A DNA stretch of 64,000 bases from a virus: positions 1-64,000 of the IMG/VR virus record IMGVR_UViG_3300009593_000010; one strand, given 5' to 3'. Below the pieces are notes generated by a model. That model was not told the DNA's origin. It searched no databases and saw only the letters and a program-made list of their open reading frames with translations. The position numbers and the translations under genes are program-made. Positions 43,145 to 60,681 of this stretch are shown one piece after another (position 1 is the stretch's first letter; the number at the start of each line of letters is the position of its first letter).

Positions 43145-45697
43145 ATGGCACTAACAGTAAGTAATAACCAAACACTAGAAGATTTACGAGTCAGTCATAA
43201 TGACCTCGTAGATGATGTTGGTGGTATTGGAAGTTTAAGAACAGGTCAAAAATCATCAGTTGTAGATGCTGTTAATTCAATTATTGATGAATACTTTTAT
43301 TTCCAAGACTATGAGTTTACTGCATCTGGTGGAAGTAACGAAACTTTCTCTGGTAATGATAGCAGTGGAAACCCATTAGTCTATTCAAAGTCAAGAGTAT
43401 TAGTATTTAAGAATGGTTCTCTATTACGAAACGGAACACAATACTCTGCAACAAACGGAACATCTGTTCAGATGGTTGGTTCTACTTCTTCTGGTGACAT
43501 TATTAGAATAACTTCTTTTACAGGGTCATATGAAGGAACTGCAGCTGCAACTCAACAAACAACTTATTGGTCTCCATCTGGTGGTTCGATTTATAACACG
43601 AACACTGATGGGATCGTCATAAACTCAAATGATACAAGTGTAGTTACAAGTCCAGCAAGTGGATATGGAATGCAACTTGAAGCAAGTGGTGACGATATTT
43701 ATGTTAACACTGGTGGAAGTAATAAAGTACAATTTACTGGTAATATAGATGTCGATGGTACATCTACATTAGATGGTGCTGTAACTGGTGGGGTGAGTGT
43801 CACTGCACCATTAATCGAAGCATCAACCTCAGTACAAACTCCTTTAATAGAATATAGTGATGGTGATGATGCAATCACAATTGCAGATGGTGGTGGTGTA
43901 ACCTTTGGTTCAACTATCAATGCAAGTGCAGCTCATGTATCGACTTCTACAATTCAAGGAACAACAATAACTGCAACAACAGGATTTACTGGAGATGTTA
44001 CTGGAACAGTTTCAGATATCTCTAATCATAATACAGGGGCCCTAACAGAAGGGTCAAATCTATATTATACAAATGCAAGAGCAGATGCAAGAATTGCTGC
44101 TGCAAGTATCGATGATGTATCTGATGTAACAATCACTTCACCAGCAACTGGACATCATTTAACATGGAGTGGTTCTGCATGGACTAACTCAGCTGCTGAA
44201 TCTTCTGATGGTATCACCGAAGGTTCATCAAACTTATTCCATACTACAGAAAGAGTACAGGATGTCGTTGGTGCATTTGTAAGTGGTACTGGATCAACAA
44301 GTGTCACTTATGATGATGCTGCTGGTACACTGGTTATATCTTCTGCTGGTAAAACACAAGAAGAAATAGAAGACATTGTAGGAGCAATGGTAACTGGAAA
44401 TACCGAAACTGGTATTGGAGTTACCTATGAAGACTCTACAGGAACTTTAGACTTCGTTCTTAACGACAACTATCTCCAAGATAAAGTTGGAGAGATGGTA
44501 GCAGGAAACACTGAAACGAATATGACAGTGACTTATGATACTTCCGATAATACCATTGACTTCTCAGTTGCAGATGCTACAACCTCTGCAAAGGGTGTTG
44601 CACAATTTAGTTCAGATAACTTTGGAGTATCATCTGGTGTAGTATCTATTAAAAACGATGGTGTCACATTAGGAACAGAAACAACAGGAAACTATGTTGC
44701 AACACTTAGTGGTGGAACTGGTATAACTGCTAGTGGTTCTAGTGAAGGTTCAACACCTACAATTTCGATTACTAATACTGCTGTTACAGCAGGTACATAT
44801 GGATCAGCAACGGCAATACCAGCAGTAACAGTTAATGCACAAGGTCAAATAACATCTGCAACTACACATGCCATATCTGGATATTCTGGATTTACTTGGG
44901 GAATAGTTGGTGGTTCTAGTGCTGGAGTAATAGGTAGTGGTGAAACAGTTAGACTTGATGCTGGAACAGGTATATCTTTAACATTAAGTGGTAACGATAT
45001 TGAAGTTGCTTCCTCACTCTCAGTAGGAGATGGTGGACTAACACAAAAGAATTTTACAACAGCATTAAATACTAAATTAACTGGAATAGAAGCTAGTGCT
45101 ACAGCAGACCAGACAAATGCAGAAATAAGAGCAGCTGTTGAAGCAGCTACTGATTCAAATGTATTTAATGACGCAGACCATACTAAATTAAATGGTATTG
45201 CGGCCGGTGCAACAACAAATACTGGTACAGTTACTTCTGTTTCTGCTTCAAATGGGTTGGTTATTAGTGGTACAGCATCTACTACACCAACAGTAAGTCT
45301 AAACACAGTTACAGGTGGTCAAATCCATAGTTTGGGTGTAAACACTGCAACCTCTGGTACTGCTGGTGAGATTCGTGCAACAAGTAATATTACTGCATAC
45401 TACTCAGATGAAAGATTAAAAGATTTTGATGGTACTATTGAAAATGCACTTGATAAAGTGTGTTCATTAGGTGGTTATTACTTCCATGAGAATGCCCTTG
45501 CAAAAGAACTTGGTTATGAAAATGAACGAAGACAGGTTGGTGTATCTGCACAGGAAATTCAAAAAGTTCTTCCAGAGGTCGTTACAACAGCACCAATCGA
45601 TGATCAATACCTAACTGTATGGTATGAAAAACTAATTCCACTCCTAATTGAGTCCATAAAAGAACTCAAATCTCAAGTAGACGAATTAAAAAAATAA
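43145..45697 (+). CDS. Tail fibre with C-terminal S74 intramolecular chaperone
   Basis: The 850-residue fibre starts with SNNQTLEDLRVSHNDLVDDV and continues with repetitive beta modules containing ERVQDVVG and GAMVTGNTETGIGVTYED units that also occur in the two other fibres. The last 97 residues are an S74 chaperone (Ser754 in SDERLKD, then RRQVGVSAQEIQKVLPEVV, then LIPLLIESIKELKSQV). Such domains fold the trimer and then cut themselves off before the Ser-Asp pair. It is a likely receptor-binding fibre. Its gene follows the DUF4815 operon with three bases between. Confidence 0.85.
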   Translation: MALTVSNNQTLEDLRVSHNDLVDDVGGIGSLRTGQKSSVVDAVNSIIDEYFYFQDYEFTASGGSNETFSGNDSSGNPLVYSKSRVLVFKNGSLLRNGTQYSATNGTSVQMVGSTSSGDIIRITSFTGSYEGTAAATQQTTYWSPSGGSIYNTNTDGIVINSNDTSVVTSPASGYGMQLEASGDDIYVNTGGSNKVQFTGNIDVDGTSTLDGAVTGGVSVTAPLIEASTSVQTPLIEYSDGDDAITIADGGGVTFGSTINASAAHVSTSTIQGTTITATTGFTGDVTGTVSDISNHNTGALTEGSNLYYTNARADARIAAASIDDVSDVTITSPATGHHLTWSGSAWTNSAAESSDGITEGSSNLFHTTERVQDVVGAFVSGTGSTSVTYDDAAGTLVISSAGKTQEEIEDIVGAMVTGNTETGIGVTYEDSTGTLDFVLNDNYLQDKVGEMVAGNTETNMTVTYDTSDNTIDFSVADATTSAKGVAQFSSDNFGVSSGVVSIKNDGVTLGTETTGNYVATLSGGTGITASGSSEGSTPTISITNTAVTAGTYGSATAIPAVTVNAQGQITSATTHAISGYSGFTWGIVGGSSAGVIGSGETVRLDAGTGISLTLSGNDIEVASSLSVGDGGLTQKNFTTALNTKLTGIEASATADQTNAEIRAAVEAATDSNVFNDADHTKLNGIAAGATTNTGTVTSVSASNGLVISGTASTTPTVSLNTVTGGQIHSLGVNTATSGTAGEIRATSNITAYYSDERLKDFDGTIENALDKVCSLGGYYFHENALAKELGYENERRQVGVSAQEIQKVLPEVVTTAPIDDQYLTVWYEKLIPLLIESIKELKSQVDELKK

Positions 45698-49639: not shown

Positions 49640-52600
49640 ATGGCAACAAAAGCAAGATATCTTGCAGACTTATTAAATGCATCTGGGGAGTTAGACTCTA
49701 CTGGTGCAGTTGAGAGTATTCAAGATAACATATCAACATTATTTGCAGCTGGATCACATACAGGTATAGCATTTACCTATGATGATTCAAATGCAACATT
49801 CAGTGCAGCGGTCACACAAGATGCTCAGTCTGCTGGTTTCTATCACAAAGTAACAGTAACAGTTTCTGGCGGAAACTATTTAATGGACGGAACTGCGAAC
49901 GCATCCGTTGTATTATCCCCAAGTGTAACATATAGATTCGATCTATCAGATTCTAGTTGTGCGAATCATCCCCTTAGATTCTCAACAACTTCTGATGGAA
50001 CCCACAACTCTGGTGCAGAAATTTCAGCAGGTTATACAACATACTCTAAGACTGGAACACCAGGCTCAGCAGGTGCATACACACAAGTTTGTTTTGAACA
50101 AGATCAAACAAACCCACTATACTACTATTGTTCTGCACATAGTGGAATGGGTGGAACTGCATTGTTGGGTGTTCATCCAAATACAGACACAATAACAGAA
50201 GGTTCTACAAACCAATATCATACCTCAGAAAGAGTACAAGATATCACTGGTGCCCAGTTGGCAACCAATGGTTCTCATACAGGTATCACAGCAACATATG
50301 ATGATGCTGGTGATGGTGCAATTGACCTTGCACTAGTAACCGAAAATGTAGAAGATATCGTTGGGGCAATGTTCTCATCAAATACCGAAAGCGGTATTAG
50401 TGTCACCTATGAAGATGGTGACGGAACGATTGACCTAGATGTTAATGACCCTACCATTTCCTTAACTGGAGATGTAACTGGTTCTGCAACAATGACCAAT
50501 TTAGGAAACACATCTATTGCTGCCACAATTGCAGCCAATAGTGTTGCAATGGGAACAGACACAACAGGAAATTATGTTGCAACAGTTGCTGGAACAACAA
50601 ACGAGATAACTGTCTCTGGTTCTGGTTCAGAAACTGCAGCCGTAACAGTTTCCCTACCAGATGATGTCACTATAGGTAATGACTTAACAGTAACAGGTGA
50701 GATGGGTTCTGCAACAATTGCTACATCTGGTAATGCAGTAATTGGTGGAAACTTAACAGTTAGTGGTACAACTACTACAGTTTCTTCCTCAACAGTTGCT
50801 ATTACAGATAACAACATGAAGGTTGCAAAAGATAACTCTGCCAACACAACCGACTTTGGTGTCTATGGTGTTTATAACGATGGTTCAACAAGATATGCTG
50901 GTATTAACTGGGATGGAAGTGAATCAGATAAGTTTAGACTCTATCATGGAACAACAACCGAACCAACTACAGTAGTAGACCCTACTGCAACTGGTTGGAC
51001 AAAAGGAACATTAATTGCAGACCTAGAAGGTAATTCTTCAACTGCATCTGCACTTGCAACTGCAAGAACGATAGCAGTAAGTGGGGATGTTGTAGGTTCT
51101 GCATCATTTGATGGTTCTGGTAATATAGATTTATCTACAGTTATTCAAGCAAACTCAGTTGCATTAGGAACTGATACTACTGGAAACTACATGACAGATT
51201 TATCTGCTGGTGAAGGTATAGATATAACTCACACTGCAGCGGAAGGTTCAACTGCAACAATTACAGCAGAGATTGCAACAGACTCAAATAAAGGTGTTGC
51301 CCAATTTAACACAACAGACTTTACAGTAACTTCTGGTGAAGTTGCTATAAACGCAGAAAGAATTCAAGATACTGCTGGAGCAATGTTCACTGGTAATACT
51401 GAGACAGGTATTACAGCAACATATCAAGATGGAGATGGAACTGTAGATTTAGTTGTTAGTGGAACACTTGCAACAATAGTTTCCGATGGTACTGAAGCAG
51501 TACAAGACATTGCTGGTGCAATGTTTACATCTAATACAGAAACAGGTATAACGGCCACATATGATGACAGTGATGGAACGATTGATCTAGTTGTTAGTGG
51601 AACACTTGCAACAATAGTGTCAGACGGAACCGAAGCAGTACAAGATATTGCTGGTGCTCAACTTGCAACTAATGGTTCACACACTGGTATTACTGCAACA
51701 TATGATGATTCAAATGATGGTGCAATTGATCTTGCATTAGTATCAGAAAATGTACAAGATATTGTAGGAGCAATGTTCAGTTCCAATACTGAAACTGGAA
51801 TTGCAGCCACCTATGAAGATGGTGATGGAACTATAGACCTTGTAGTTAGTGGTGCTGCAGCAACAATCGTATCAGACTTCACAGAAGCAGTTCAAGATGT
51901 AGTTGGTGCAATGGTATCATCCAACACAGAAAGTGGTATAGGAGTGACATATGAGGATGGAGATGGTACTTTAGACTTTAATGTATCAGACCCAACATTA
52001 TCTTACACAGGAGATGTAACTGGTTCTGGAACAATGACTGATTTAGGTAATACTAGTATTGCATTAACAATAGCTGCAACATCTGTAGAAAACAGTATGT
52101 TAGCAGGTTCGATTGCAAACAGTAAACTTTCAAACTCAAGTATAACAGTTTCAGATGGTTCTAACTCAACTGCAACTTCATTGGGTGGAACAATAACATT
52201 TGCTGGTACTTCAAACGAAGTAGATGTTGCAGAAAGTTCTGGAACAATTACATATGGACTACCATCTGATGTAACAATATCAAACGACTTAACAGTTAGT
52301 GGAGACTTAACAGTTACAGGTTCAACAACACAAACTGGTTCAATAGTTTCAGATTCAAACTTTACAGGTTTAACAGATGCAAACTCTGGAAATTCAACAG
52401 ACTTTGGTTTCTATGGTAAGTATGTAGAATCATCCACTACAAAATATGGTGGTATATTCTACGATGCATCAACAGATAATACATTTAGATTATTCTCAGA
52501 TACACAAACAGTACCTTCAACTACAGTAAATACAGGTGCAACAGGTTATACTGCTGCTAACTTAGTAGTTGGTACATTAACTGGTAATGTTACAGGTAAT

Positions 52601-53584
52601 GTGACAGGTTCTTTAACTGGTAATGCAACAACAGCGACAACACTTGCAACTTCAAGAAATATAAGTGGTGTAGCATTTGATGGTTCTGCAAATATTACTT
52701 TAGACACAGACGACATTGGTGAAGGTTCAAGTAACCTCTATCATACATCAGAAAGAGTTGCAGATGTTGTGGGTGCGATGGTTAGTTCAAATACCGAGAG
52801 CGGTATTTCTGTAACCTATGACGATTCAGATAATACATTAGACTTTAATGTTGCTGATCCAACAATTGCATTGACAGGAGATGTAACTGGTTCTGCAACA
52901 ATGACTGACTTAGGTAATGTTAGTATTTCCACTTCTCAAGCAGCTGATTCAGTTGATCTAGGTACTCATACAACAGGTAACTATGTTGACAATGTTACTG
53001 GTGGAACTGGTGTTACTGTAACAGGTAGTGCTGGTGAAGGATGGGAACCAGCAATTAGTATTGGACAGGCAGTTGCAACTTCAAGTAATGTGACTTTTGC
53101 AGATGTTGCTGCAACAGGAAATGTAACAATTACTGGTAATTTAACTGTTAATGGTTCTCAGACAACTGTTAACTCAAGTACCCTTTCAGTAACCGACCTA
53201 AATATAATCGTAGGAAAGGATGCATCTACATTGGCTGCAACTGATGGTGCTGGATTAACATTTGGTGCTCATGGTTCTGCACCTACATTTACTTGGGATA
53301 ATGGAAACGCTAGACTAAGTGCAAACAAACAGATTTATTCTTCTGGTGGATTTGTAGGTAATGTAACAGGTAATGCAAGTGGAACCGCTGCTACAGTAAC
53401 AGGTGCAGCTCAAACTGCAATTACAAGTGTAGGAACATTGACTGGACTAGCAGTAAGTGGTGCAGCTACAACCAGTTATACAACGATTGGTTCTAGTGCA
53501 AAAGCATTTAGAAATATCTACATGCATTCATCTGCACCGAGTGGGGGAGATGGGGCCGTAGGTGATCTCTGGATAACATATTAA
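49640..53584 (+). CDS. Large tail fibre with embedded cupredoxin-like domain, 1314 aa
   Basis: The head (ARYLADLLNASGELDSTGAV) is a fibre-attachment motif. At about 65-178 a separate beta domain shows a blue-copper-like ligand set: His110 in ANHPLRFS, then Cys164, His167 and Met170 in YYYCSAHSGMGG. From 180 on, at least six copies of a unit with VQDIVGAMFSSNTETGI and TYEDGDGTIDL alternate with DVTGSATMTDLGNTSI and NDLTVSG modules. The C-terminus contains the sequence FRNIYMHSSAPSGGDGAVGD, close to a common fibre-tip motif, and it ends in DLWITY. It is probably a long receptor-binding fibre. Confidence 0.8.
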   Translation: MATKARYLADLLNASGELDSTGAVESIQDNISTLFAAGSHTGIAFTYDDSNATFSAAVTQDAQSAGFYHKVTVTVSGGNYLMDGTANASVVLSPSVTYRFDLSDSSCANHPLRFSTTSDGTHNSGAEISAGYTTYSKTGTPGSAGAYTQVCFEQDQTNPLYYYCSAHSGMGGTALLGVHPNTDTITEGSTNQYHTSERVQDITGAQLATNGSHTGITATYDDAGDGAIDLALVTENVEDIVGAMFSSNTESGISVTYEDGDGTIDLDVNDPTISLTGDVTGSATMTNLGNTSIAATIAANSVAMGTDTTGNYVATVAGTTNEITVSGSGSETAAVTVSLPDDVTIGNDLTVTGEMGSATIATSGNAVIGGNLTVSGTTTTVSSSTVAITDNNMKVAKDNSANTTDFGVYGVYNDGSTRYAGINWDGSESDKFRLYHGTTTEPTTVVDPTATGWTKGTLIADLEGNSSTASALATARTIAVSGDVVGSASFDGSGNIDLSTVIQANSVALGTDTTGNYMTDLSAGEGIDITHTAAEGSTATITAEIATDSNKGVAQFNTTDFTVTSGEVAINAERIQDTAGAMFTGNTETGITATYQDGDGTVDLVVSGTLATIVSDGTEAVQDIAGAMFTSNTETGITATYDDSDGTIDLVVSGTLATIVSDGTEAVQDIAGAQLATNGSHTGITATYDDSNDGAIDLALVSENVQDIVGAMFSSNTETGIAATYEDGDGTIDLVVSGAAATIVSDFTEAVQDVVGAMVSSNTESGIGVTYEDGDGTLDFNVSDPTLSYTGDVTGSGTMTDLGNTSIALTIAATSVENSMLAGSIANSKLSNSSITVSDGSNSTATSLGGTITFAGTSNEVDVAESSGTITYGLPSDVTISNDLTVSGDLTVTGSTTQTGSIVSDSNFTGLTDANSGNSTDFGFYGKYVESSTTKYGGIFYDASTDNTFRLFSDTQTVPSTTVNTGATGYTAANLVVGTLTGNVTGNVTGSLTGNATTATTLATSRNISGVAFDGSANITLDTDDIGEGSSNLYHTSERVADVVGAMVSSNTESGISVTYDDSDNTLDFNVADPTIALTGDVTGSATMTDLGNVSISTSQAADSVDLGTHTTGNYVDNVTGGTGVTVTGSAGEGWEPAISIGQAVATSSNVTFADVAATGNVTITGNLTVNGSQTTVNSSTLSVTDLNIIVGKDASTLAATDGAGLTFGAHGSAPTFTWDNGNARLSANKQIYSSGGFVGNVTGNASGTAATVTGAAQTAITSVGTLTGLAVSGAATTSYTTIGSSAKAFRNIYMHSSAPSGGDGAVGDLWITY

Positions 53585-53615: not shown

Positions 53616-55190
53616 ATGACTTCAAAGATAAAAACACCAAGTGGATGGGTCGATACCTATGGTATGCGTGTCAAGACGCCTGGTGGTTGGAATAAAGTAG
53701 TTGATGTAAAAAGAAAGACACCTACAGGATGGGTGTTTCAAACTGGTACTATACAGGTTACTCAACCTTATCAACAAACATATCAGCAAGGATATCAACA
53801 ACCATTTCAACAAGGATATCAACAACCTTACCAAGCACAAAATAGTAGACCTTCTAATTATGAACAAACAATTAATAGACCTTCAAGTTATGAGGTAACT
53901 ATTAATAGACCTTCTAGTTATGAGGTGACAATTAATAGACCTTCTAGTTATGAGGTGACAATTAATAGACCTAGTTCTTACGAACAAACTATACCTAGGC
54001 CTGGTTCTTATGAACAAACTATACCTAGACCTGCTAACTACGAACAAACTATACCTAGGCCTGGTTCTTATGAACAAACTATACCTAGACCCACAACCTA
54101 TCAGACACAAAATTATCGTCCACCTACTTATGAACAGACGATACCTAGACCCACAACCTATCAGACTCAAGGCACTAGACCAACATTCTATCAGACTCAA
54201 GGAACAAACTATCGTCCAGCATTCTATCAGACTCAAGGTCAGACCTTCTATCAGACTCAAGGTCAAACATTTTATCAGTCACAGGGTACTAACTATAGAC
54301 CAGCATTCTATCAAACACAGGGTACTAACTATAGACCAGCATTCTATCAGACTCAAGGACAAACATTCTACCAAACACAGGGTACTAACTATCGTCCTAC
54401 AGGTTATCAACAACAGGCTGGAAACTTCTTCTTCCAAATTGGTAAGGGTCAACCAGTCTATGTTCCGTTTTTACAAGTACCAGCAACAAGGCCAAGTATT
54501 TCTGGATTCTATCAAATACAGAATGCACAATTTTATCAGATTCAAAATTCAAGACCTACTGTTCAAGGGTTCTATCAGATTCAAAATGCAAGACCTACTG
54601 TTCAAGGGTTCTATCAAATTCAGAATGCTCAATTCTATCAGATTCAGAATGCTCAATTCTATCAGATTCAAAATTCAAGACCTACTGTACAGGGATTCTA
54701 CCAGATTCAAAATGCAAGACCTACATTCTATCAAATACAGAATTCAAGGCCTGCAAACTATGAAGTAACTATCAGTAGACCTCAGTATTATCAAACTCAG
54801 AATTCAAGGCCTGCAAACTATGAAGTAACTATTAACAGACCTACATCTTATGAGGTAACTATTAACAGACCTACATCTTATGAGGTCACAATTAACAGAC
54901 CGACTTCATATGAGGTAACTATTAATAGACCTACAAACTATGAACAAACAATTAATAGACCTACAAACTACGAACAAACAATTAATAGACCTACTAATTA
55001 TGAACAAACAATTAACAGACCGACTTCATATGAGGTAACTATTAACAGACCTACAACTTATCAGACACCTGCTACAAGACCTGCCACAAGACCTAGTACG
55101 AGACCAGCAACAAGACCTAGTACGAGACCTTCTACTAGACCAGTTGCAACATGGGATGGAGATATCAACAAACCTTGGCCTGCAGATTAG
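53616..55190 (+). CDS. Tyr/Gln/Arg/Pro repeat protein of the fibre cluster, 524 aa
   Basis: The first 40 residues carry three KTPxGW motifs. The rest is almost pure tandem repeat with Arg-Pro and Tyr at regular spacing: NRPSSYEVTI and PRPGSYEQTI decamers, TYQTQN and FYQTQG units, FYQIQNARPTVQG units, and again NRPTSYEVTI and NRPTNYEQTI decamers, ending with TRP-based triplets (ATRPSTRP). A single non-repeat insert (about 265-290) contains GNFFFQIGKGQPVYVPFLQV. Such a Tyr- and Gln-rich sequence is likely to be extended or phase-separating and could form an adhesive or flexible fibre. The GGAGTGAGGA site and its place after the large fibre support a virion role; it has no recognised family. Confidence 0.75.
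   Translation: MTSKIKTPSGWVDTYGMRVKTPGGWNKVVDVKRKTPTGWVFQTGTIQVTQPYQQTYQQGYQQPFQQGYQQPYQAQNSRPSNYEQTINRPSSYEVTINRPSSYEVTINRPSSYEVTINRPSSYEQTIPRPGSYEQTIPRPANYEQTIPRPGSYEQTIPRPTTYQTQNYRPPTYEQTIPRPTTYQTQGTRPTFYQTQGTNYRPAFYQTQGQTFYQTQGQTFYQSQGTNYRPAFYQTQGTNYRPAFYQTQGQTFYQTQGTNYRPTGYQQQAGNFFFQIGKGQPVYVPFLQVPATRPSISGFYQIQNAQFYQIQNSRPTVQGFYQIQNARPTVQGFYQIQNAQFYQIQNAQFYQIQNSRPTVQGFYQIQNARPTFYQIQNSRPANYEVTISRPQYYQTQNSRPANYEVTINRPTSYEVTINRPTSYEVTINRPTSYEVTINRPTNYEQTINRPTNYEQTINRPTNYEQTINRPTSYEVTINRPTTYQTPATRPATRPSTRPATRPSTRPSTRPVATWDGDINKPWPAD
53835..55095 (+). repeat. Tandem DNA repeats inside the Tyr/Arg/Pro repeat gene
   Basis: Runs of 30-bp units (for example TAGACCTTCTAGTTATGAGG) recur at 53850-54000 and again at 54780-55050, with 33-39 bp units between. 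Some neighbouring copies are identical at the DNA level, which suggests recent expansion or contraction by slippage or recombination. Confidence 0.8.
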
Positions 55191-55247: not shown

Positions 55248-55871
55248 ATGTTATTAGTATACGATAACGACAACCAATTACATTTAATCAACAGTACAGG
55301 ATTACGATGGAATTATGAGCGTGCAGACAAACCAGACTTAGGTTTCGATTACGATTACCTATTTTATAACCCAACCGAAGATGAAACTTTTGAAATTCAA
55401 GGAAATGTATTTCCATTGAGTCAAGAGCAAATTGATAGTATTGAAGAATATATTAATCTTGCAGAACCACCAGACATCTGTAATCTACAAAATCAATTTA
55501 CAGATGATTTAAAACATCATATTTTTGAACAGTTTGAAAATGGATTCTTTGGTGACTTGGGATATAATGGATGGGGTGATCTTCTTATCACTGCGAGAGA
55601 GGGCTCTAACGACCCATATCGTGCAGAGGCAAGACGATGTTTAGAGTTTAGGGACTTTGTTATGCAATCTTATTATAGATTAAGAGAAGAGATTCTTGCA
55701 TCTGAGGATGCAGACTTACTGCCATTTGAGGATTACATAGGTAAACTACCTATAGTTCCACAGTCAGATTGGTTCTCAAGAGGTGATAGACCTATCGCAG
55801 AACGACTTCAACTACTTGCCGATAGTGATACTTTAGATATCAATGGTGGGGAAGATAGTAGGAGATTCTAA
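55248..55871 (+). CDS. Hypothetical protein, 207 aa
   Basis: An acidic protein without recognised domains; it has YDNDNQLHLINSTGLRWNYE at the start, and a helical second half with Cys-containing DICNLQNQF. Position directly after the fibres and the GGAG site before the ATG would fit a fibre-assembly (chaperone) protein, but I see no sequence support for that. The next gene starts three bases after the stop. Confidence 0.6.
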   Translation: MLLVYDNDNQLHLINSTGLRWNYERADKPDLGFDYDYLFYNPTEDETFEIQGNVFPLSQEQIDSIEEYINLAEPPDICNLQNQFTDDLKHHIFEQFENGFFGDLGYNGWGDLLITAREGSNDPYRAEARRCLEFRDFVMQSYYRLREEILASEDADLLPFEDYIGKLPIVPQSDWFSRGDRPIAERLQLLADSDTLDINGGEDSRRF

Positions 55872-55874
55872 ATA

Positions 55875-56789
55875 ATGGATATCCATTCATGGATGGACGA
55901 CCCTTTAGACATCGTATATCTTGACAAATCAAAACCATTAGACGAGTTACCCCACAAACAAGCTTGGGTAATCGACAATTTTCTAACTCCAGCAGAGTTC
56001 GCTGCGTGGACGGAGTGGAGAATAGTTCATTCAGACTACAAACTTTCAAATAGAGTTATGCGTGAAGGGGAGATGCAACATCTCTACTTTGGTCAGTCTT
56101 GTTATTTTGCTTATGACCAATTCTTTGAGAGACCAGATGAGGGGTTTCATGAGAGTGTCGAACAAGGAACTAAGGGACAACTTGCAAAGAGACATTGGAG
56201 AAGGATTCAACCAGACTGGAAAAAAAGAGTAATCTCAAGGCCAAATGTTGGACATTGCCACCCAATGTTAGATACTTTTGGTTGGAAACTACAACAACAG
56301 TTTAGATTTGATTGGGTAAGATTCCAGTATTGTGGATTCAATGGTCAGATAACAGGACAAGATGGAACAGTCCATGAGGATACACACAAAGATGGTAGGA
56401 GTGAAAACAACCTTACATTCTTATTCTATGATCAAGAACACTGGGAAGATGACTGGGGTGGAGATTTAATATTTTTTAATTCCGAGTTTCATAATCCAGA
56501 ATTGGGTATAGGAATACCAGAAAACGAGAAGGATTATGAGATAGGACGGATAAAATATAAACCTAATCGTCTTATAGTAGTAAATGGTATGATATCTCAT
56601 AGACATCCAGGCCCTGCAATACCATACGATAAACCAAACTTTCCCTTTAGAACAAGTATGGTCATGAGGGGTGATGAAATTAAACTATGGAAAAGGGGTC
56701 TATATAAACATATAGAATATGATAATGGTAAGTGGGAAACCCTACCAACCCTAAAGGAAGAGTATAAACTATGGACAGAAGAACAGTAA
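55875..56789 (+). CDS. 2OG-Fe(II) oxygenase
   Basis: The 304-residue enzyme has the iron triad as HED (His167, Asp169 in GTVHEDTHKDG) and His242 or His244 in NGMISHRHPGP, with Arg259 (FPFRTSMVM) for 2-oxoglutarate. LTFLFYDQ and DWGGDLIFF are the usual strands between them. This is a prolyl-hydroxylase-like (PKHD) oxygenase; the substrate is unknown. It lies in a block with a second oxygenase, a nucleotide-activating fusion and a DUF6065-like protein. Its 3' end overlaps the next gene by 19 bases. Confidence 0.85.
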   Translation: MDIHSWMDDPLDIVYLDKSKPLDELPHKQAWVIDNFLTPAEFAAWTEWRIVHSDYKLSNRVMREGEMQHLYFGQSCYFAYDQFFERPDEGFHESVEQGTKGQLAKRHWRRIQPDWKKRVISRPNVGHCHPMLDTFGWKLQQQFRFDWVRFQYCGFNGQITGQDGTVHEDTHKDGRSENNLTFLFYDQEHWEDDWGGDLIFFNSEFHNPELGIGIPENEKDYEIGRIKYKPNRLIVVNGMISHRHPGPAIPYDKPNFPFRTSMVMRGDEIKLWKRGLYKHIEYDNGKWETLPTLKEEYKLWTEEQ

Positions 56790-57800: not shown

Positions 57801-58768
57801 CTACAGAAAATAAGTGTCCAGTTGAACACAAGGTAAATAAAATAAAGTTTCGCACAGCAGACGAAGATGCCTATCGTGATGGAGTCTTTCAACCAGTTCC
57901 AGCATCCAAAGCAAAACCAGAGTGGTATAATAATTTAAGAATCTATAGAGATAACAGTGATAAAAGCTTTGGTAACATGTCTGCAAAGGCATGTCCATCT
58001 ATACATGATTGGTTTCAGAGTGGTTATATCATTAGAACAAACAAGACTATTTTAGTATTACAAGAGTTTGGCCCTCAGATTCTTGAACGAATGCATGAAG
58101 ATGAACTCGCAGAGAAGGCTAGACAGGGTGAAAAAGCAGATCAAAGGGGTTGTGCATTTGTATTAAAGGATGATATCAACACCTTTGAAGAAGCAGAAAA
58201 ATTAAAAGAAAGGTTCTTTGAAACAAAGGAGTTGACACCAAACGATAACTACGATGATTCAGAGATACATCTTCATATTAAGATAGATGCAAGATATAAT
58301 ATCACTGGTGGACATAATGGTGGTCAGTTGTTAGGTTCTCATATGGAAGATAAGATGTCCATTAAGTTTAGAACGCCGTGGACTGTATCAACACCAGAAG
58401 GATACTCTTGTTATTGGTTAGACCCATTCATGCATTATAACCCATATTTCATGACATGGCAAGGGATAATGGATACTGATAAGTGGAATCAAGTTGATAC
58501 TAACTGCATTACTATACTATATCCTAAAATAAAAGGCAACTTTATTATACCAAAAGGAACTCCAATTGTCCAGATAGTTCCTTTCCGAAGGGAACATTGG
58601 GAACATGAACTTGTTTTTGAAGAAGATGGTGTGTTAGATTATATGGACGATCCCATGATAAAAGCAATGGACAGAAGAACCAGATCAAATGAACAAATCA
58701 TTGGTACTGGAGATAACAAAGTAAACCTATATCGAAAGGAGGCTTGGACGCCCAAGAAATTTAAATAA
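57797..58768 (+). CDS. DUF6065-like protein, 323 aa
   Basis: The order PASKAKPEWYNNL, ACPSIHDWFQSGYII, FRTPWTVSTPEGYSCYW, and IIPKGTPIVQIVPFRREHW is close to the DUF6065 pattern as I recall it, a probable beta-jellyroll family of unknown function often found with oxygenases. His residues in IHLHIKID and EHWEHE could bind metal. It overlaps the DUF2061 gene by four bases and the next oxygenase by one base, so the block is one operon. Confidence 0.65.
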   Translation: MTTENKCPVEHKVNKIKFRTADEDAYRDGVFQPVPASKAKPEWYNNLRIYRDNSDKSFGNMSAKACPSIHDWFQSGYIIRTNKTILVLQEFGPQILERMHEDELAEKARQGEKADQRGCAFVLKDDINTFEEAEKLKERFFETKELTPNDNYDDSEIHLHIKIDARYNITGGHNGGQLLGSHMEDKMSIKFRTPWTVSTPEGYSCYWLDPFMHYNPYFMTWQGIMDTDKWNQVDTNCITILYPKIKGNFIIPKGTPIVQIVPFRREHWEHELVFEEDGVLDYMDDPMIKAMDRRTRSNEQIIGTGDNKVNLYRKEAWTPKKFK

Positions 58769-59514
58769 TGTATCATCCCCTATTTCCAACAAACTGTTTC
58801 ACCTTTGATATGTGTGGAGACGACCCAGAAACACAAATTAATGAAGATGGTTTTGCAAACCTATCTAAAGAAATTTATAGAATGAGAAAGAAAGACCCTA
58901 TTGGTCGTGCAAGATCAAATGCAGATAGTGGGTGGCAGTCCAATGATGGTATAAAAGAAAATCCACTCTTTCAAGGAATGGTTAATCGAATAGGTAGATT
59001 CTTTGAGAGGGAGATATTTCCTTTTCATGGTGATGTGGATCACCACCTAAAAGTATTGCATGGAAATTATTGGGCAAACATTAATAACATTGGTGGGTAT
59101 AACAATACACATACACATCCAGGCTGTTGGTATTCTGGTGTTATCTATATTGATCTACCATCTAATATGAAAGGTGGTAATTTACAGTTAATAGATGGTG
59201 TTGCAAAACATTATAGTATGTTTCCTACCATGTCAAACAGATCAATGGCTTGGCAAAACTTTGAACCGAAGGTTGGTAAGTTAATATTATTTCCTTCAAC
59301 AACTTTACACTTTGTAGAACCTAATCAAACGGATGGAGATAGAATCTCAATTGCATTTAACAACTCCTTTACTGAAAGAAGAATCAATATGGAGAACCAA
59401 GATGACATGCCGTTTGGTATAGTAAATAGTCATAATGAGGATTTAGGATTCTATGATCATGGTACTCCATCCTATGAAGTAGACTCTGATGGAAATCTTC
59501 ACTTTCCTAAATAG
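58768..59514 (+). CDS. 2OG-Fe(II) oxygenase, TIGR02466-like
   Basis: The 248-residue enzyme has the family pattern NYWANINNIGGYNNTHTHPG (His115/His117), WYSGVIYIDLPS, LILFPSTTLHFVEPN (His181) and RISIAFN (Arg192), giving the iron and 2-oxoglutarate ligands. It resembles the broken oxygenase at 5388-6334 and is intact. The N-terminus (SGWQSND) also fits the family. The substrate may be a host or phage protein or a small molecule. It is the last gene before a 53-bp gap. Confidence 0.85.
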   Translation: MYHPLFPTNCFTFDMCGDDPETQINEDGFANLSKEIYRMRKKDPIGRARSNADSGWQSNDGIKENPLFQGMVNRIGRFFEREIFPFHGDVDHHLKVLHGNYWANINNIGGYNNTHTHPGCWYSGVIYIDLPSNMKGGNLQLIDGVAKHYSMFPTMSNRSMAWQNFEPKVGKLILFPSTTLHFVEPNQTDGDRISIAFNNSFTERRINMENQDDMPFGIVNSHNEDLGFYDHGTPSYEVDSDGNLHFPK

Positions 59515-59865: not shown

Positions 59866-60681
59866 ATGGCATCTCCAAACTCAACGGCGACACTAAAAGA
59901 ATATGCACTACGAAGACTGGGTAAACCAGTTATAGAGATTAATGTCGATGATGACCAGATTGATGATATCATTGACGATGCATTACAATACTATAAAGAG
60001 TACCACTACGATGGTACAATAAGAACCTATCTTAAACATCAAATCAATGATAATGATTTGGTTAATCAAAAGACAGATGCCTCTATGGCACAGTCTACTA
60101 CTGGAACACATATATCAAACTCTATGACCTATAAAGAGGGTCAAGGGTATATTGTTCTTCCAGAATCAGTAATGTCAGTATTAAGAATCTTCCCATTCAC
60201 TGATAAATCTGGAATGAATATGTTTGATATGAGATATCAATTGAGGTTAAACGATCTTTATGATTTATCTCACACATCAATTCTTCAATATGAGATGGTA
60301 CAAAACCAAGTGCAACTATTGGATGAATTGTTGGTAGGTGAAGTACCTATTAGATTTAACAAAGCACAAAACAGGTTATACCTAGATATGGACTGGACAA
60401 ATGCTGTCACAGCAAGTGATTGGGTTATTATTGATTGCTATCGTGCAATTAATCCTACCCAGTTTACCGATGTCTTTAATGATGTCTGGTTAAAAAAATA
60501 TGTGACTGCAAGGATCAAAGAACAATGGGGTGCAAATATGTCCAAGTTCGAGGGAATCCAATTACCAGGCGGTGTGACAATGAATGGACGACAAATATTA
60601 GAAGATGCAAAAGAAGAAATTGTGAAACTTGAGGAAGAGAGTACATTACAACAGACTGAGAATGCCATCTTCATAGGATAA
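59866..60681 (+). CDS. gp13: gp13, neck protein
   Basis: gp13 with gp14 closes the head portal and joins head to tail. The 271-residue protein shows the family start (TLKEYALRRLGKPVIEINVDDDQIDDIIDDALQY split over two helices), then GYIVLPESVMSVLRIFP, DMRYQLRLNDLYDL, and DVWLKKYVTARIKEQWGAN. Length is near T4 gp13 (309 aa). gp14 follows after four bases. Confidence 0.9.
   Translation: MASPNSTATLKEYALRRLGKPVIEINVDDDQIDDIIDDALQYYKEYHYDGTIRTYLKHQINDNDLVNQKTDASMAQSTTGTHISNSMTYKEGQGYIVLPESVMSVLRIFPFTDKSGMNMFDMRYQLRLNDLYDLSHTSILQYEMVQNQVQLLDELLVGEVPIRFNKAQNRLYLDMDWTNAVTASDWVIIDCYRAINPTQFTDVFNDVWLKKYVTARIKEQWGANMSKFEGIQLPGGVTMNGRQILEDAKEEIVKLEEESTLQQTENAIFIG

Follow-up and report, generated by a model that had tools for sequence, protein, structure and literature searches.

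The distal needle of T4 gp37 is formed by two stems of equal length, residues 882-931 and 960-1009 (50 + 50 aa), which flank a 28-aa tip (932-959) with the receptor contacts (PMC6957217). This needle has been described as six-stranded and antiparallel (PMC7291167, PMC9659904) and measures about 150 by 25 Å by electron microscopy (PMC3004832). A second kind of fibre end is presumed for the gp38 adhesins of the T2/S16 type and the Gly-rich proteins of pelagimyophages, putative distal adhesins whose short genes follow the last large fibre gene and precede gp13. In cultured pelagimyophages, the corresponding position is taken by the following Gly-rich, gp38-adhesin-like proteins:

L030:11181-12074, HTVC008M gp065 (I899_gp065)
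L032:8859-10409, Mosig_00062

The gene analysed here has the same placement as these gp38-type genes. It lies in a window of 64,000 nt (the whole stretch of DNA that was analysed), which is part of a 129,558-bp IMG/VR virus record, and it encodes a protein whose repeat units are arranged in mirror order on either side of a short insert.

The repeat gene, its neighbours and its relatives

A 524-aa ORF with an ATG start was found at 53616-55190 on the plus strand, in exact agreement with the coordinates of the original prediction. Its parts and the neighbouring genes are:

53616..55190, +, whole ORF, putative mirror-repeat fibre-tip protein, 524 aa (ORF call; relatives)
53616..53759, +, head, aa 1-48, three KTPxGW beta-hairpins, proposed to dock to the preceding fibre (core invariant among relatives; AlphaFold2)
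53763..53834, +, arm 1 base zone, aa 50-73, 4-residue xYQQ units
53835..54401, +, arm 1 (outgoing), aa 74-262, units of 10, 12 and 8 residues
54402..54506, +, tip, aa 263-297, aromatic non-repeat insert, proposed receptor-contacting turn (group-specific sequence)
54507..55073, +, arm 2 (returning), aa 298-486, mirrored order, complementary unit types
55074..55142, +, arm 2 base zone, aa 487-509, six 4-residue TRPx units opposite the xYQQ units
55152..55187, +, C-terminal WDGDINKPW tail, aa 513-524 (counterpart RWDGxxxQQWPA in two-gene forms)
43145-45697, another fibre gene of the same cluster, with a Peptidase_S74 domain
49640-53584, +, preceding tail-fibre gene, 1314 aa, presumed carrier (PHROG tail-fibre matches; synteny)
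53456..53581, +, "dock", conserved 42-aa C-terminal segment of the preceding fibre, with DGAVGD
55248..55871, +, orf207, conserved 207-aa neighbour, kept downstream of the repeat protein
55875..56789, +, 2OG-Fe(II) oxygenase-like neighbour, kept in most loci
59866-60681, gp13, downstream of the repeat gene

The original description held for the reading frame, its tandem units, all three KTPxGW motifs and the one aromatic insert. The motifs lie at 53631, 53673 and 53715 and occur nowhere else in the window. About 440 residues of the protein are repeats, and Tandem Repeats Finder assigned nearly all of 53769-55143 to repeats with periods of 12, 24, 30, 36, 39, 60, 90 and 120 nt. Near-identity of neighbouring copies in DNA, as claimed before, applied to some neighbours only and not overall, as identity ranged from 71 to 95%. 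The body is rich in Q (15.8%), T (13.9%), P (11.1%), Y (10.5%) and R (8.0%), with 4.4% Gly, and a composition count found no Cys, His or Met in it. Searches of the repeat body against PHROGs, Pfam and NCBIfam returned compositional matches only. AlphaFold2 predicted six strands for the head (pLDDT about 64) and gave no usable model of the arms when run on the full protein (pLDDT <50 in the arms). An overlapping +1 ORF (54010-54768), only fragments of which are shared by relatives, was dismissed as a by-product of the repeats.

Relatives of the protein were identified in IMG/VR (L001-L010 and L012-L019) and on one GTDB contig (L029), whereas a tblastn search of 50,697 phage records with the whole protein and two heads found none; at this sensitivity, no cultured phage has the gene. 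The KTPxGW head, which had been suggested as a query against other phages, was recovered from IMG/VR relatives, and a single scan turned up no fewer than 201 stretches that encode it. Conservation is highest in the 48-aa head and the WDG tail, and the body between them diverges to entirely different repeats, such as RPATGTYPAQ and YGFQQPYNAP in L017 or YPANARQPFTYQ in L040. The tip sequence likewise changes from group to group (for example, SGFWQPSGGEKEGGGTFYPP in L002).

The genomic position is constant: wherever the contig was long enough, the order was fibre, repeat protein, orf207, 2OG oxygenase-like gene, more genes and gp13. In distant members, the upstream fibre shares chiefly its C-terminal ~42 aa, the dock. 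Searching IMG/VR with this segment, we could read the next gene in 78 of the best 80 loci, and in 77 of these 78 a member of the repeat family directly followed the dock-bearing fibre (67 KTPxGW head genes and 10 B genes of the two-gene form described below), a link between dock and head that is perhaps partly a selection effect of a query built from family members. The sole exception, L120, has an unrelated next gene; where B came first, the head gene lay behind it in the cases examined. Within the preceding fibre gene of the window, there is also a 138-bp tandem repeat of about two copies (51365-51657).

Further downstream, orf207 has a conserved GREGSNxPxR motif and always adjoins the repeat protein or lies one gene away. 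Its AlphaFold2 model reached a pLDDT of 85, and a fold search gave no structural match at E<=0.001, known fibre chaperones included; we regard it as a candidate assembly chaperone. A second 2OG-Fe(II) oxygenase-like gene is located at 58768-59514, and both of these genes lie between the fibre cluster and gp13 and are conserved with the repeat protein. Protein hydroxylation is a possible function of both. Hydroxylation of the repeat prolines in particular was rejected as a specific link, since HTVC008M and Mosig also carry such oxygenases upstream of gp13, beside Gly-rich genes. The closest matches of gp13 itself are in Pelagibacter, Methylophilales and cyanobacterial myoviruses, at about 45-55% identity.

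Mirrored and complementary units in the one-gene form

The order of the repeat sub-families, overlooked in the original prediction, forms a mirror palindrome about the insert. The two arms of the window protein are nearly equal (223 and 214 aa, with a tip of 35 aa), and across 21 one-gene relatives the arms differ by 5-19 aa. Compared with shuffled unit order, unit sizes were mirrored at p<0.05 in 18 of 21 one-gene proteins. In the window protein, 16 of 19 units matched in size (p=0.001; 0.32 in the parallel orientation). This protein departs from strict size equality in units based on the 12-mer YQTQGTNYRPAF, which stand opposite 13-residue IQN units. When units were anchored at RP in 24 one-gene proteins, 417 of 423 opposed units had the same size; here as in the counts that follow, kin sequences are included and are not phylogenetically independent, so that the number of independent events is overstated.

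Opposed units are not identical but complementary in type. YEQTI faced YEVTI in 194 of 209 cases, compared with 128 (maximum 150) upon shuffling within proteins, and all nine E units of the window protein form such Q:V pairs (9/9). The 12-mers YNxQIQNxRP (N) and YQTQGxxxRP (G) were opposed in 57 of 57 clear pairs, with one further pair ambiguous. Among the 10-mers, TQG stood opposite IQN (10G:10N) 60 times and 8 times when shuffled, while the 8-mers YQTxRP and VQNSRP gave 66 clear pairs and no pair of the same type. In the base zone, the 4-residue xYQQ units lie opposite six TRPx units in each one-gene relative of this type. In the close relatives L007 and L008, the N and G 12-mers sit in swapped arms, which indicates that both sides changed together. 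No inverted DNA repeats were found in the gene, so the mirror appears to be kept at the protein level and an origin at the DNA level is unlikely.

The two-gene form and variation in arm length

In many phages, the system is split over two genes: gene A encodes the head, repeats and a C-terminal tip module, and gene B encodes repeats and the RWDG tail. The two genes adjoin, with B before A at some loci. In 71 A/B pairs, with arm ends set by a fixed rule, arm lengths ranged from 179 to 553 aa and were tightly correlated between partners (Pearson 0.965; Spearman 0.981, or 0.94 with an earlier, cruder definition of arm ends). The median difference was 7 aa (interquartile range 5-9.5), and 76% of the pairs fell within 15 aa of it, as compared to a mean of 11% and a maximum of 28% in 10,000 permutations; some of the outliers contain an additional domain whose start is misplaced by the arm-end rule.

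Statistics on prolines and unit pairs were obtained from 44 non-redundant A/B pairs with matched lengths. Reading A from the tip and B from the N-terminus, the ungapped correlation of the proline patterns over the full length was 0.857, whereas, under the same optimisation of the offset, it was 0.422 for the parallel orientation and 0.379 for non-cognate partners; 1,587 of about 1,800 prolines faced a proline, against a chance expectation of 253. Exactly one partner was of the aromatic P-x-T-Y type in 1149 of 1231 opposed units and in 693 (maximum 755) when units of the same length were shuffled within each pair. Such within-pair shuffles, like the within-protein shuffles and non-cognate controls above, guard against composition and periodicity and only partly against shared history. 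The usual A/B partners are PFTYNARY/PYIANARQ, PFTYRN/PVSAQE and PFTYNHRS/PNIRSAQE. Spacing between prolines is nearly always even, which fits extended strands in which successive side chains alternate.

The tip modules of the 71 A proteins comprise 29 Hint/intein-like domains, 33 short peptides, mostly Gly-rich or aromatic, and 9 other domains. One A protein ends in QPPGGEKE (L075), similar to the mid insert QPSGGEKEGGG of the one-gene protein of L002, and this likeness suggests that the window insert is the counterpart of the A/B junction. Examples of Hint-ended gene A are:

L072:4166-5431
L093:4112-5887

The Hint domains show a Gly-run, a CFxxG start, an HP block and usually VHN or AHN near the C-terminus, and that of L093 matched Pfam Intein_splicing at 5e-8, under the family cut-off. 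After HN, where classical intein splicing would call for Cys, Ser or Thr, the Hint domains of the A proteins mostly carry a non-nucleophilic residue (G, F, M, N or L), which makes classical splicing unlikely; self-cleavage or ligation by these domains at the fibre tip is possible. At two-gene loci, a gene of ~500 aa with a weak glycosyltransferase family 8 match (L072:6139-7659) lies between B and the orf207 homologue and might modify the fibre.

According to the original prediction, repeat number and unit order could change by recombination. Change does occur, under constraint: L004 is 80 aa longer, having gained about 40 aa in each arm, and the arms of two-gene systems co-vary; free variation is not what we see. 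In the proposed comparison between strains, an all but identical one (3 SNPs over 13,572 bp, ungapped) had the same repeat number. Differences in one arm were found between the close strains L014/L015, L076/L078 and L140/L142. In L076, A measures 263 and B 291 aa, and in L078, 299 and 273 aa, with flanks 99.5-99.8% identical, and the longer arms together give 299/291; the longer arm from each of L140 and L142 similarly gives a matched 530/523. Because swapping arms between assemblies restores the match, repeat collapse in short-read assembly is likely in both cases; each assembly seems to lack part of one arm, through collapse or a real deletion. The loci L105 and L121 are 99.9% identical, and a truncated gene A in L121 goes with a single-base gap.

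Proposed architecture, alternatives and known systems

From the sequence statistics, we put the chance at about three in four that the protein is a distal fibre extension of a T4-like marine phage, with arms zipped antiparallel and the insert as a host-contacting tip. In this architecture, the N-terminal head with its three KTPxGW hairpins would be seated on the C-terminus of the fibre whose gene lies just upstream. The chain would run out through arm 1, turn in the aromatic tip and return through arm 2, bringing the WDG tail beside the head. The arms would be antiparallel and in register, with complementary units of equal length opposed (YEQTI/YEVTI, TQG/IQN, YQT/VQN, YQQ/TRP), so that the unit sequence would set both register and rod length. 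Three chains could then form a six-stranded needle, as in the stem-tip-stem of T4 gp37, and scaling from the T4 needle suggests a length of about 60-70 nm for arms of ~220 residues. Mirror order and complementarity point to physical pairing of the arms, and we infer docking and trimer formation along with it; that the far-end tip contacts the host and binds the receptor is suggested by its position and exchangeability. The expectation of an extended, fibre-associated protein is supported by the two-arm architecture and by the gene's location, immediately behind a fibre gene on the stretch from the fibre cluster to gp13. An adhesive function, also suggested, is possible only for the tip.

With somewhat more reserve, we favour a new class of fibrous proteins with a pairing code, in which two antiparallel repeat strands, from one chain or from two separately encoded ones, would be matched through their units (opposed units equal in length and complementary in type, Pro facing Pro), allowing rod length to be set and tip modules, Hint domains included, to be exchanged with register kept. 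Should the arms pair in the way the statistics indicate, this would be a protein analogue of strand complementarity, and the register and length of a long fibre could be read from sequence. An unannotated and widespread marine phage gene family would become interpretable as fibre ends, with the host specificity of these phages probably located at the tip. The arm-matching rule also offers a check on short-read assemblies, as it flags probable repeat collapse.

Other readings explain parts of these data. A disordered chain that is adhesive or forms condensates, whether a virion protein or an effector, with Tyr/Arg stickers, Gln/Thr/Pro spacers and an incidental repeat order, would suit a body rich in Q, T, P, Y and R that lacks Cys, His and Met, as well as the low AlphaFold2 confidence throughout the arms. 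We consider it improbable, since mirror order, complementary opposed units and the matching of arm lengths within and between genes would serve no role in such a chain; the earlier suggestion of phase separation is poorly supported for the same reason, as a sticker-and-spacer chain needs neither mirror register nor matched arms nor complementary opposed units. Little credence is likewise due to a fibre component whose arms both lie along a third, constant scaffold, such as the preceding fibre. Such a common ruler would account for equal arm lengths by themselves, but not readily for their threefold range among phages, and both the complementary types that swap arms together in L007/L008 and the rule of one aromatic unit per opposed pair point to direct contact. 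That the mirror is a structurally meaningless by-product of gene growth through DNA duplication and inversion is very improbable and already largely contradicted. The gene is rich in repeats with recent duplicates, but inverted DNA repeats are absent, inversion would yield reverse complements and not a mirrored protein order, and the same matching is found elsewhere between two separate genes, even with their order reversed (L089, L092).

A narrower objection accepts the fibre extension and questions the tip, which could be structural with host binding located elsewhere, for instance in the fibre gene at 43145-45697. This second fibre of the same cluster carries the S74 chaperone, and the window tip is a short peptide of 35 aa, so that we regard the objection as unlikely yet worth real weight. 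Against it, no other part differs as much from group to group as the tip, and whole domains (Hint and others of about 110-140 aa) can take its place, as expected of a host-contact site.

The window protein fits the KTPxGW-head/WDG-tail family defined here in its head, mirror arms, WDG tail and location after a fibre with the DGAVGD dock. Its Pfam likeness to Extensin and high-sulfur keratin lies in short repeats with Pro and Tyr (Keratin_B2, 30.1 bits versus a cut-off of 28.7). These matches are compositional, however: the Extensin score is far under its cut-off, the window body has no Cys, and we know of no mirror order in Extensin, high-sulfur keratin or similar low-complexity families. Bacterial Hint domains have their likeness in 29 of the 71 two-gene A proteins, whereas the window protein has none. 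With the gp38-type adhesins it shares genomic placement and presumed role, but its body, at the low Gly content given above, has no Gly lattice and instead has Pro, Tyr, Gln, Arg and Thr in mirror order.

The closest parallel is T4 gp37 (PDB 2XGF; D10/D11), a fibre end in which equal stems run out and back round a short tip, an arrangement deduced for the window protein from sequence statistics. A search of profile A1 against all PDB chains gave no phage match at E<=10, and the protein could not be linked by sequence to gp37 or to another solved structure. For the dedicated folding chaperone encoded beside gp37, the candidate counterpart here would be orf207, conserved downstream but with no fold match at the threshold given above. 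The mirror-repeat arms are 4-10 times longer than the T4 stems and follow a complementary repeat code, and the family has a separate KTPxGW head, a WDG tail and, in many phages, a two-gene split. The axial His metal sites of gp37 are absent from the window body; among close relatives, only L002, L003, L004 and L012 have His motifs (HFHH/FHQHQN) that flank the tip at corresponding distances, which by analogy are possible metal sites as in gp37. In the libraries searched, nothing was found on mirror-symmetric or Pro/Tyr repeat phage fibres, nor on Hint domains in fibres, and there, as to our knowledge elsewhere, no described protein family has two arms in a mirrored complementary unit code, or such arms split over two genes. 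The proposed role at the fibre end is of a known kind, and gp37 shares the stem-tip-stem plan; what appears to be new is the mirrored, complementary two-arm code and its division between two genes.
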